A stretch of 49,981 nucleotides of DNA. Origin: Deltaproteobacteria bacterium (GTDB lineage Bacteria > Desulfobacterota > Deferrimicrobia > Deferrimicrobiales > Deferrimicrobiaceae). Where the stretch lies: positions 1 through 49,981 of the forward strand of contig JAKALO010000003.1 of NCBI GenBank assembly GCA_021824125.1. The letters run 5' to 3'. The stretch's first letter is position 1. Every line of letters starts with the position of its first letter. Shown here piece by piece: positions 46,667-49,981 of this stretch. The position numbers and the translations under genes were made by a program. The notes under the pieces are model-generated. The model worked only from the letters and a program-made list of their open reading frames with translations, had not been told where the DNA came from and searched no databases.

Positions 46667-46852
46667 TCAACCCATCACCCGCTTCTTGGCTTTCTTCTCA
46701 GTGCCGCGATTCCGGGCCACAACGGGGTCCACGATTTCCCCGCAGTTCAGGCATCGCCAGGCATAAAACAGCTGGAGCATGTCCTGGAACCGTTCGTATA
46801 CCATCGCACCGTTGCACCGGGTGCATTTCATCTTCCGTTCTCTGCCGGCCAT
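46667..46852 (-). CDS. Small zinc-ribbon protein
   Basis: The 61-residue protein has two Cys pairs spaced as in a zinc ribbon: CTRC near residue 10 and CLNC near residue 34, with a hydrophobic linker, then a basic tail (KKAKKRVMG). Function is unknown; small ribbons of this type can bind nucleic acid or protein. ATG 46850-46852 has GGGAGG four bases upstream. It is divergent from the secretion ATPase gene, which also carries extra zinc ribbons. Confidence 0.8.
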   Translation of the reverse strand: MAGRERKMKCTRCNGAMVYERFQDMLQLFYAWRCLNCGEIVDPVVARNRGTEKKAKKRVMG

Positions 46853-46964: not shown

Positions 46965-46997
46965 GCTCGGGATGGACCTGTGGGAGGAGTTTATTTA

Positions 46998-48890
46998 ATG
47001 GGGAAAAAGCGTCTTGGGGAGCTTCTCGTGGAAACGGGCCTGCTCACCGAGGAGAACCTCACGCGGGCGCTGACGGAGCAGCGGTCCAAGCGCGGCAAGC
47101 TGGGGGAGGTGATCGTCACCCTCGGGATAGCCACCGAGGAGGAGATCGCCCAGATGCTTTCCATCCAGCTCGGCATTCCCTACGTCGAGCTGAAACAGAC
47201 CCCCGTGGAGCCCCACGCGATCGAGCTGATCTCCGAAAAGGTCGCGCGGAAGCACCTCATCCTGCCGATCTCGCTGGAGCAGAAGGACCTCCACCTCGCC
47301 ATGGCGGATCCCATGAGCTTCGAGGCGTTCGAGGACGTCCGGTTCGCCTCCGGTTACACCATCAAGCCGGTCATCGCGACCCGCACGGACATCCTGTGGG
47401 GAATCGACCAGCACTATCACCTCGGCTCATCCCTGAACACCATCGTCAAGGACATCGCGGAAGAGCGGTCCGTCGAGGTCGTACAGGACGGGAAGGAGGG
47501 AGACGGCCGGGACACGGACGACCTCCGCAAGAAGAGCGAGGCGGCCCCGATCATCCGCATGGTCAACCTGATCGTCGCCGAGGCGGTCGACCAGGGCGCC
47601 TCCGACATCCACGTCGAGCCGACCAAGAGCAACCTCCTGATCCGTAACCGTGTCGACGGCGTCCTTAGGAAATCGCTCGAGCTGCCGAAGTGGGTGCAAG
47701 GGGCGGTCATCTCGCGTGTCAAGATCATGGCCAAGATGGACATCGCGGAGAAGCGCCTTCCACAAGATGGCCGGATCGGGGTCCGCGTCGGGTCGAAGGC
47801 GCTGGACCTCCGGGTTTCGACGATGCCCACCTCCTACGGGGAGAAAGTCGTCGTCCGGATACTCGATTCGGCGAATTCCCACATCCCGCTGGAACAGATG
47901 GGGATGCCGCCGGAAGCCCTCGCCCAGATGGAGGTGCTCGTCCGCCGTCCCCAGGGGATCGTCCTCGTGACCGGTCCCACCGGCTCCGGCAAGACGACCA
48001 CGCTCTACAGCATCCTCCACCGGGTAAGGAGCGTCGAGCGGAACATCACGACGGTCGAGGACCCGATCGAGTACGAGCTTGCCGGCGTGAACCAGGTGGC
48101 GATCCAGGACAAGATCGGGATGACGTTCGCCTCGACCCTGCGGGCGATGCTTCGCCAGGACCCGGACATCATCATGCTCGGCGAGATGCGCGACCTGGAG
48201 ACGACCACTATCGCGATGCAGGCGGCGCTGACGGGGCACCAGGTCTTTTCCACCATGCACACCAACAGCTCGACAGCCACGATCACCCGGATGCGGAACC
48301 TCGGTGTCCCCTCCTACCTCATCGCATCGACGGTGAACGGCGTCGTGGCGCAGCGGCTGGTCCGGGTGATCTGCCAGAAATGCCGCGTCAAGTACGAGCC
48401 ATCCGAATACGACCTGTCCAAGATCGGGGCCGGCCGTAAAAGGGGGGATGCGGTCTTCTACCGCGGGGAAGGGTGCGTGGCATGCGACGGGACGGGGTAC
48501 CGGGGACGTACCGGCCTCTTCGAGATCCTGCCCTTCACGCAGCAGGTCCGCGACATGGTCGCCTCGGACGCCTCCGAAACGGACATCCGGCAGTCGGCCA
48601 TCGCCGGGGGTATGGTGACCCTGGCGCGTGCGGCGCTCGACAAGGTCAAGGCCGGCGTAACGACCCTGGACGAACTGTACCGAGTGGTGGAGACCGAGGA
48701 GGATTTCGGGACGACGTGCCCCCAGTGCAACGCGGCGCTTGGGTCGGGATTCGTCATGTGCCCGGCATGCGGCCATTCCCTGCAGGCCACCTGCGCATCC
48801 TGCCAGAAAATCGTCTCCCCTGCATGGAAGTTCTGCCCCTACTGCCGGTGCGACTTCAAGGCGCCGGCCTCCGGACGGTCCTTCGCCTGA
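46998..48890 (+). CDS. GspE/PilB-type secretion ATPase with double zinc ribbon
   Basis: This hexameric ATPase class drives assembly of type IV pili or type II secretion pseudopili at the inner membrane. The 630-residue protein has an N-terminal MshEN domain (about 1-150), Walker A GPTGSGKT (326-333), Walker B region IIMLGEMRD (391-399), the His box STMHTNSS (418-425) and the family zinc site Cys459, 462, 493 and 496. After residue 570 it adds a tail with eight Cys: 574, 577, 588, 591 and 599, 602, 613, 616, a double zinc ribbon not typical of these ATPases. ATG 46998-47000 has GGGAGGAG upstream. No pilT or pilC neighbours are seen, so pilus versus secretion cannot be decided. Confidence 0.92.
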   Translation: MGKKRLGELLVETGLLTEENLTRALTEQRSKRGKLGEVIVTLGIATEEEIAQMLSIQLGIPYVELKQTPVEPHAIELISEKVARKHLILPISLEQKDLHLAMADPMSFEAFEDVRFASGYTIKPVIATRTDILWGIDQHYHLGSSLNTIVKDIAEERSVEVVQDGKEGDGRDTDDLRKKSEAAPIIRMVNLIVAEAVDQGASDIHVEPTKSNLLIRNRVDGVLRKSLELPKWVQGAVISRVKIMAKMDIAEKRLPQDGRIGVRVGSKALDLRVSTMPTSYGEKVVVRILDSANSHIPLEQMGMPPEALAQMEVLVRRPQGIVLVTGPTGSGKTTTLYSILHRVRSVERNITTVEDPIEYELAGVNQVAIQDKIGMTFASTLRAMLRQDPDIIMLGEMRDLETTTIAMQAALTGHQVFSTMHTNSSTATITRMRNLGVPSYLIASTVNGVVAQRLVRVICQKCRVKYEPSEYDLSKIGAGRKRGDAVFYRGEGCVACDGTGYRGRTGLFEILPFTQQVRDMVASDASETDIRQSAIAGGMVTLARAALDKVKAGVTTLDELYRVVETEEDFGTTCPQCNAALGSGFVMCPACGHSLQATCASCQKIVSPAWKFCPYCRCDFKAPASGRSFA

Positions 48891-48932: not shown

Positions 48933-49981
48933 CTAGAAATTCTTCCCCAGCGAGAGGACCGCGGAGGCGCCCCGGTAGCTGCGCGCAGTGCGGAATTGCG
49001 GGAAGTTCGCCTCGTCGTCGTGCATCGTGAACCCCTTGAGGTTCAACCCCGCCTCGATCCCATCCCCGAGGTCACGCGCCACTCCCACCCCGAGAGCCAC
49101 CTTCCAGCGTTTCCCGACGTGACGCGCGGAGTCCCCGGGGTAGCCGTTTTCGGCCACGAAGAGCCCCGTCAGGTCTGAAGAGAGGGTGGTCTTCCCGTCC
49201 AGCCGGTGCAGAAGGTTGGCGAGGACCCACCACTCGTCGCCGTGAATGTTGTTCGACTCCGGGGAGAGACCCCCGGAACCGTCCGAGATGCGGCTCTTCC
49301 GGCGCAGGACCGCCTTGAGCGTGACCCCCGCGGAGGTGTTTTCCCACGACCGGTCGAGTCCCGCACCCACGGCGTAGAAATCCCCCTCCCTGTAGAGAGC
49401 GGCTCCCTGCGCGGTCTCCTTCCGGTACCACGCGGCGCTCCCGAAGAAACGGGCGCTCCACCCCGGCGCGAAAGCGTATTTCCCCACCGCGTTGGCCGTG
49501 ATGATGTCTCCCGGCTCGAAATCCTTCATGCCGATGTCGGTGCTGAAGTCGTACTTCCCGCGAAAGGCGTAGCCGACCCCCAGCCCCGCGATCCAGTCAT
49601 TCCACGCCTTCGCGACGGAGACGGACGGGTTGACGTTGAACCCCTCGCCGAAGCCATTTATCGAGACGAGCTCCGGGTCCATGAGGAGGACGAGGTCCTC
49701 CTGTGCGAGGTCGGTCTTCCCGGTGGGCACGTTGAGATCGAGCCCCAGGAGTACGTCCACGGGGAACTTCCCGAGAATGGCGCAGGACGACATGACCTTC
49801 GTGTCGAGGGCGCTCGACAGACTCCTGCTGCCCTGCCCGTCCCGTTCGAACCGCGTGTGCTGGATCCCCGAGAGCAGCCCCAGTGTGAATTCATTGCGCT
49901 TCATCTCGAGCCGGACGGGGATATAGGCCTGCTGGCCGGTGCCGTCCTTTGTATCTTTCCACCAGTCGTAGGCGAACCCCG
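48933..49981 (-). CDS. Outer-membrane beta-barrel protein (5' end beyond window)
   Basis: I do not recognise a specific family. The open frame runs past the window edge, so the signal peptide and N-terminus are missing; an internal ATG at 49902-49904 is not the start because the upstream codons continue the same strand pattern (AYIPVRLEM). At least 349 residues show alternating hydrophobic/polar strands, aromatic girdle residues, short turns and a final Phe (SLGKNF), the usual C-terminal signal for outer-membrane assembly. Segments such as WIAGLGVGYAFRGKYDF and GVTLKAVLRRKS look like barrel strands. It may be a porin or channel. It converges on the secretion ATPase gene. Confidence 0.75.
   Translation of the reverse strand, partial: GFAYDWWKDTKDGTGQQAYIPVRLEMKRNEFTLGLLSGIQHTRFERDGQGSRSLSSALDTKVMSSCAILGKFPVDVLLGLDLNVPTGKTDLAQEDLVLLMDPELVSINGFGEGFNVNPSVSVAKAWNDWIAGLGVGYAFRGKYDFSTDIGMKDFEPGDIITANAVGKYAFAPGWSARFFGSAAWYRKETAQGAALYREGDFYAVGAGLDRSWENTSAGVTLKAVLRRKSRISDGSGGLSPESNNIHGDEWWVLANLLHRLDGKTTLSSDLTGLFVAENGYPGDSARHVGKRWKVALGVGVARDLGDGIEAGLNLKGFTMHDDEANFPQFRTARSYRGASAVLSLGKNF

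Follow-up and report, generated by a model that had tools for sequence, protein, structure and literature searches.

A PilB-like ATPase with an extended C-terminus

The window, by which we mean the whole 49,981-nucleotide stretch of DNA that was analysed, contains at positions 46998-48890 (+) a gene for a PilB-like ATPase of 630 residues that ends in a double zinc ribbon. The translation was taken from the ATG at 46998, which is preceded by the sequence GGAGGAG, through to the stop codon at 48888-48890; in the list of open reading frames the same frame begins at a GTG at 46980. Gene maps here and below consist of open frames picked by scripts, with no gene finder. Pfam searches of the translated protein identified three domains, MshEN (residues 58-143), T2SSE (residues 180-562) and DZR (PF12773, residues 574-616), and an AlphaFold model of the whole protein reached a mean pLDDT of 82.8.

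The first-pass annotation had described the gene as standing alone, beside a divergent gene for a small zinc ribbon. The divergent gene is real: it encodes a 61-residue zinc-ribbon protein (46667..46852, -), and on the same side lie genes for an M23 peptidase and a SecA-like protein (SecA judged from sequence). Isolation of the ATPase gene held within the window, with the downstream side hardly visible because only about 1.1 kb of contig remains beyond the gene. Adjoining it on that side is a 323-residue open reading frame (48933-49904, -) that has no Pfam match; this frame ends in Phe, and it may encode an outer-membrane barrel. Among the genes flanking the ATPase we found neither a signalling nor a pilus link.

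The motor core is complete

The T2SSE motor core (residues 180-562; 47535..48683, +) matches PF00437 with an E-value of 2.4e-133 and contains the Walker A sequence GPTGSGKT at residues 326-333. The family's own four-cysteine zinc site (C459/C462/C493/C496; 48372..48485, +) is invariant in an alignment of 46 sequences. Ten positions that we take to represent the Walker A, Walker B/Glu and His boxes and the family arginines were followed across the family (G326, G331, K332, E354, G395, E396, H414, H421, R272 and R287). Conservation at these positions is 98-100% among 50 short tailed rows and 99-100% among 81 tail-less rows, counts that leave out rows L060, L198 and L209-L211. Because this catalytic set is kept, the window protein is very probably a working motor, presumably in the form of a hexamer. 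The candidate reading that it is a dead motor was rejected on the same grounds. The core of the structural model matches Geobacter PilB (5tsh) with a Z-score of 47.5 and an rmsd of 1.9 over 385 residues.

Membership of the T2SSE/PilB-GspE superfamily is clear from the PF00437 match and from conservation of the key boxes. Narrower assignments gave scores below each model's cut-off: 616 bits against 675.65 for the PilB equivalog TIGR02538, 593.1 bits against 630.25 for the GspE equivalog TIGR02533 and 468.8 bits against 850 for TfpB (NF053534). By sequence, the window protein is nearer PilB than GspE. The label 'GspE/PilB' given in the first-pass annotation is thus right at the level of the superfamily only, since the protein scores under both NCBI equivalog cut-offs.

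The N-terminus carries a predicted c-di-GMP module

Upstream of the motor lie two copies of a 24-residue c-di-GMP motif. The first (residues 5-28; 47010..47081, +) matches every defined position of the pattern RLGxx(L/V/I)(L/V/I)xxG(L/V/I)(L/V/I)xxxxLxxxLxxQ, as given in the relevant passage of the reference (PMC5013675), and the second (residues 34-57; 47097..47168, +) shows three departures from it (K for R34, A at 45 and I at 50). The MshEN domain as defined by Pfam then occupies residues 58-143 (47169..47426, +; PF05157, E 1.2e-22). The model of the tandem motif, NF053729, has a cut-off of 38 bits; the whole protein scored 58.4 bits and residues 1-81 alone scored 63.2 bits, and the motif was likewise above cut-off in four of four further short-form members scanned. 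Residues 3-140 of the structural model match MshE with c-di-GMP (Z 19.7, rmsd 1.8, 138 residues).

The tail matches a double zinc ribbon and is conserved

After the motor the protein continues with eight cysteines in four CxxC pairs, at residues 574/577, 588/591, 599/602 and 613/616 (48717-48845, +), followed by a ninth cysteine at residue 618. Translation placed the pairs exactly where the first-pass annotation had located them, and they are separate from the family's own four-cysteine site, as it had also proposed. Its reading of the tail as a double zinc ribbon was borne out by the domain search: the match to DZR PF12773 scored 41.6 bits against a cut-off of 27.3 (E 1.4e-10) and covered model positions 1-44/45. 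The tail would be expected to bind two zinc ions.

In an alignment of 18 tails the invariant columns comprise the eight cysteines, one proline and one tryptophan (W610) and nothing else; no conserved basic patch was found in this alignment. Within the tail, dN was lower than dS in all five pairs compared (dN/dS about 0.17-0.41), a ratio that exceeded that of the core (about 0.09-0.23) in each of the five. Structure prediction gave short strand pairs whose confidence was low to moderate (pLDDT about 56-77), both in context and with the tail modelled alone (mean pLDDT 69). Comparison of the whole model with known structures barely covered the tail, and a PDB sequence search with the tail alone returned weak matches, the best being RING-type fingers (E 0.0024).

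The possibility that the tail is a frameshift, a chimera or an assembly artefact was rejected, as independent genomes share both the type of tail and its approximate end point, and dN stays under dS in the tail. In open-licence full-text literature, no such tail on PilB or GspE and no described role for one was found among the matches listed; the closest mention among them, in an excerpt of one study, was an archaeal Cys-rich domain in pilus loci that was likened to DZR (PMC5847659). Passages from the literature on Geobacter PilT and on myxobacterial pili do not mention a tail of this kind.

Distribution of the tail across the family

Searching 24 genomes of the same family, the window's own included, gave a match at E<=1e-150 in 21; no match at this threshold was found in G006, G020 and G022, and the match in G023 is a fragment. 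All 20 full-length same-family orthologues carry four CxxC pairs after the motor, and the tail is present in both genomes searched from a sister family of the class. Across the phylum, 297 genomes including the window's own were then searched with a profile of the motor end plus tail, and at least 53 gave a match at E<=1e-45, each with at least one match reaching profile position 176 or beyond, of 187. As no more than 11 top candidates were scored in any genome, 53 may be an undercount. The search also read through stops, and one of the 53, G298, has an open frame that stops after two of the four CxxC pairs.

Forty loci from many families were then fetched, and 36 of them have the four CxxC pairs, with a tryptophan shortly before the last pair (judged by eye). 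The remaining four are L192, with two CxxC pairs, and L209-L211, with none. In L192 (G298:C8, near 340 kb) the frame ends after the second pair and its close relative L185 has four, so the short tail of L192 reflects either decay or a sequencing error. A tailed match was also present in two of the seven genomes of the small phylum to which locus L061 belongs. The Eisenbacteria MAG of L061 and the 'Gemmatimonadetes' MAG of L053 fall in this one small phylum, and the name attached to the latter is probably wrong.

Of 34 genomes reached via named loci, the six reached via tailed loci have full-length matches, and no tail-spanning match at E<=1e-40 was found in the 28 reached via loci outside the tailed set. 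Canonical PilB/GspE rows, four from the window's own genome among them, lack the tail. The idea that it is simply the standard end of PilB/GspE proteins was rejected, since it is missing from the canonical rows and from those 28 genomes. The first-pass annotation had allowed that the tail might prove standard in the lineage with a known role: it is standard in the orthologous subfamily, but it is absent from the canonical rows examined, and no described role was found among the literature matches listed. Four further genomes (G307, G226, G174 and G060) encode long PilB-like ATPases without a tail, with 36-37% identity and frames of about 773-813 residues that end near query residue 563-568.

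A tree of 108 motor cores, built without the tail, requires four changes to account for its presence and absence. All 41 canonical tail-less rows lie on one side of a branch with support 88, and the tail-less L209, L210 and L211 nest among tailed rows (support 98 and 100). As the tree was made by a quick method and is unrooted, gain and loss look alike in it; rows L025 and L053 carry the label 'long' wrongly, owing to long open frames. By sequence, then, presence of the tail goes with one part of the family, and the tail would be dispensable for some members, because L209-L211 nest inside the tailed group.

A long sister form with a predicted second input

Beside the short form of about 630 residues, the tailed group includes a long form of about 800-860 residues (L194, L196, L197 and L199-L207). 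All four long forms scanned combine a receiver domain, in front, with MshEN and T2SSE. Three of these four also gave a Pfam DZR match; the fourth, L194, has four CxxC pairs and no Pfam match at the threshold used. Scores for the c-di-GMP motif in the four were 36.3, 30.9, 25.6 and 42.5 bits, three of them under the cut-off of 38. Because of the receiver domain and the low motif scores, the long form is predicted to have gained a phospho-input while its second-messenger motif weakened.

Histidine kinase and receiver genes lie within 6 kb in all 12 long loci, and an MglA gene, assigned via a PDB match (3t12, E 4e-46), lies within that distance in 11 of them. HDOD genes are present in the same 6-kb range at three long loci and at two short ones, the query having been confirmed as HDOD. 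In L194, L196, L197, L199-L202 and L204-L207, which come from several families, histidine kinases, receiver proteins, MglA and the receiver-MshEN-T2SSE-DZR fusion recur together, and this cluster looks like a coherent signalling module. In passages of published work on prokaryotic Ras-like GTPases, relatives of MglA are linked to two-component systems in general and not to this cluster.

Neighbourhoods of the short form vary between lineages

The small zinc-ribbon gene adjoins the ATPase gene and is divergent from it in all 16 same-family loci, the window included. Of the two sister-family loci, one has it divergent and the other has it on the same strand. At the other tailed loci examined, which lie outside these two families of the class, no such gene was found. 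A role as functional partner across the subfamily was rejected for this reason, and the pairing is probably local synteny. On the other side, the window's family has a binding-protein-dependent ABC transporter cluster (one permease scanned). The SecA-like, M23 and ABC transporter context tells nothing of function.

Across the short form, genes of interest within 6 kb were sparse: a histidine kinase in 9 of 48 loci, a receiver in 3, HDOD in 2 and a secretin in 2. This is no richer than the tail-less loci, where histidine kinases were found in 14 of 68, receivers in 12 and secretins in 27. In G067 a single run of genes comprises PilC, PilB, PilM, a trio of small genes occupying the PilN-P positions (position being the sole basis for these names), a secretin, pilin-type genes, a histidine kinase, a sigma-54-type response regulator and, last, the tailed ATPase; a tail-less and a tailed motor thus share one pilus cluster. 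In L186-L188 the tailed gene is followed by a gene with a zinc-finger match (a B-box, 24.5 bits against a cut-off of 24.1) and then, two genes after the tailed gene, by a pilin-type gene; one of each was scanned. The short-form loci L056-L059 and their kin have genes for RNase J, a DUF362 ferredoxin-type protein and a c7-type cytochrome as neighbours; SSB-type genes (7 loci) and RadC-type genes (8 loci) lie further off, one member per cluster having been scanned. In this lineage a cytochrome c7-match gene directly follows the tailed ATPase (L056:8001-8573, +), and the cluster is present in 8 loci. The nested, tail-less L209 lies after a gene with Mg_chelatase domains, presumably ComM/YifB-like.

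Tailed ATPases are encoded away from pilus partner genes

PilB is usually, though not universally, encoded with the platform protein PilC. No PilC homologue was found within 6 kb at any of the 48 short or 12 long tailed loci, as far as their contigs reach, and the tail-less loci had one in 41 of 68 cases and showed none in the other 27. These counts carry some redundancy and uneven reach: the 48 short loci include contigs fetched twice (L056/L176 and L058/L174) as well as numerous near relatives, at several loci (including the window) less than 6 kb lies between the gene and the end of the sequence, the tail-less controls have unequal flanks, and in the tail-less set L060 and L209 are the same contig. 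Six loci (L071, L073, L181, L190, L198 and L208) had been set aside as 'other' before the count; two of them have receiver genes, two have histidine kinases, and no MglA or PilC was found in them. The window's contig likewise gave no PilC/GspF match.

The window's own genome encodes four full-length PilC/GspF proteins (on C56, C3, C177 and C175, with T2SSF in all four), each with a tail-less PilB or GspE adjoining or next but one. The other platform matches in this genome, on C183 and C210, consist of paired short frames that were judged Tad-like by reading the sequence. In G012, which consists of one contig, three ATPases pass E<=1e-60. Two of them lack the tail and sit no more than 1.5 kb from PilC/GspF, near 2.27 and 2.04 Mb; the third, with the tail, is located at 0.72 Mb, more than 1 Mb from any PilC/GspF. 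G078 has one PilC and two ATPases at E<=1e-60, and its tail-less ATPase is the one that lies 1.4 kb from the PilC. In a set of 28 genomes, for 11 of which PilC matches at E<=1e-8 were listed, the nearest PilC among the matches listed was about 11 kb away in G067, about 13 kb in G113 and about 19 kb in G080. The PilC of G067 belongs to the same gene run as the tailed ATPase, and that of G080 has its own adjoining tail-less ATPase.

We class the tailed ATPases as orphans, since their genes stand apart from those of the usual pilus partners. Motors with no tail can be orphans too, because two tail-less MshEN/T2SSE proteins of the window's own genome, on C37 (L218:5411-6973, -) and C187 (L220:5685-7430, -), also lack a PilC match on their contigs. 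Orphan status is also no proof of an accessory function, because pilus genes are described as often scattered in Deltaproteobacteria, according to part of one study (PMC6060248).

A possible signal-gated motor acting in trans

The conserved zinc-ribbon tail together with the location away from pilus partner genes suggests an auxiliary, signal-controlled pilus motor. We tentatively propose that these proteins, PilB-DZR, constitute a conserved subfamily among the extension-type ATPases of type IV pili and serve as auxiliary, signal-gated motors in trans, with the ribbon used for docking. The N-terminal MshEN region would bind c-di-GMP and thereby determine which state the PilB-like hexamer adopts. 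At the C-terminus, the double zinc ribbon, holding two zinc ions, would be a protein-docking handle that attaches the motor to a partner, which may be a protein of polarity or signalling or a pilus machine whose genes lie elsewhere. For the sister form, the weakened c-di-GMP input and the added phospho-receiver would make the input of the motor swappable. The motor fold (as predicted), the catalytic residues, the c-di-GMP motif, conservation of the tail, orphan status and the context of the sister form can all be read from sequence. The hexamer, zinc binding, docking by the ribbon and action in trans on pili are what we infer.

There are precedents for parts of this scheme. Acinetobacter uses two extension ATPases, TfpB and PilB, for one pilus, and PilB of M. 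xanthus acts as a signalling protein for exopolysaccharide (PMC11656802). Also in M. xanthus, part of one report describes how SgmX with MglA positions PilB, and how two-hybrid analysis showed no direct MglA-PilB contact (PMC7519303). The first-pass annotation had suggested protein or nucleic-acid contacts for such ribbons; of these, gene context, mainly that of the sister form, favours protein contacts in signalling; the short form itself would be linked to MglA and kinases solely by homology with the long form. A fuller version of the proposal is possible but held with greater reserve, namely that PilB-DZR motors are a distinct subfamily in which a common docking head is paired with an interchangeable input (c-di-GMP for the short form, phosphorylation and MglA for the long one), and that they switch or place pilus assembly, or a signalling output, in trans, with no pilus operon of their own.

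The tailed ATPase might instead be the main motor of a conventional pilus or secretion machine, the remaining genes of which are unlinked to it, with the ribbon acting as a stabiliser of the C-terminus specific to the lineage or replacing another contact to the platform. Its complete catalytic residues and PilB fold would fit such a role, as would the pilin-type gene near the tailed gene in L186-L188 and the dispersal of pilus genes in this part of the tree, as described in part of PMC6060248. However, no platform is left over in the window's own genome, G012 or G078, the short Tad-like pairs aside, because each PilC/GspF has a tail-less ATPase within about 1.5 kb, and the G067 pilus run that includes a tailed gene already holds its own PilB. 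We therefore consider this reading unlikely.

A second account, to which we assign a similarly low probability, makes the protein a signalling ATPase that no longer assembles pili and passes its c-di-GMP/ATP state (in the sister form, its phosphorylation state) via the ribbon to an enzyme or regulator. Such a role accords with the lack of a PilC match within 6 kb at the 60 tailed loci, with the receiver domain, histidine kinases and MglA of the long form and with the precedent of PilB as a signaller (PMC11656802). Yet the catalytic and zinc-site residues are kept, which a pure adaptor would not obviously need, and in some lineages pilin or secretin genes adjoin the tailed gene.

Could the tail be a neutral or merely stabilising decoration with no specific partner? 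Three nested members do without it and its dN/dS lies above that of the core in every pair, but the eight ligands and one tryptophan are invariant in 18 tails and the four CxxC pairs recur in 36 of 40 further loci from many families, making this improbable. Least probable is a ribbon that binds nucleic acid, as zinc ribbons of other proteins do, for example to link a DNA-uptake pilus to incoming DNA: the SSB-type, RadC-type and RNase J genes of one short-form region and the ComM/YifB-like gene before the tail-less L209 would fit it, but the SSB and RadC neighbours are confined to the synteny of that one lineage, and besides the ligands the tail keeps only a tryptophan and a proline, with no basic patch.

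An extra motor or motor-like signaller that acts in trans, gated by c-di-GMP and using the ribbon as its docking site, remains the most economical account. The choice, placement and gating of extension motors is still an open matter in the biology of type IV pili, and here a widespread subfamily has a complete motor apart from platform genes, an extra docking-type domain with invariant ligands and two forms of input. Because the extra domain is shared and the inputs differ, docking and input would be separable, and this can be tested by removing one small domain. For annotators, the label 'pilB' or 'gspE' on such genes does not imply a pilus operon.

Comparison with known systems

One close counterpart is PilB (Geobacter 5tsh/5zfr; TIGR02538), with which the window protein shares the N-terminal MshEN region, the T2SSE motor, the four-cysteine site and the catalytic residues; it differs in adding a double zinc ribbon and in having no PilC match on its contig. 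With GspE (TIGR02533) it shares the motor core and the four-cysteine site, and no GspF match was found on the window's contig. MshE, a c-di-GMP-binding extension ATPase, resembles it in the first motif exactly, in the second nearly and in the N-terminal fold, whereas the window gene differs by its orphan status and zinc tail, and c-di-GMP binding is here predicted from sequence. The likeness to TfpB of Acinetobacter (NF053534) lies in the idea of two extension ATPases per pilus, and the window protein is no TfpB. Finally, the tail has the same four CxxC pairs as the Double zinc ribbon domain (PF12773), a domain that is itself known from other proteins.
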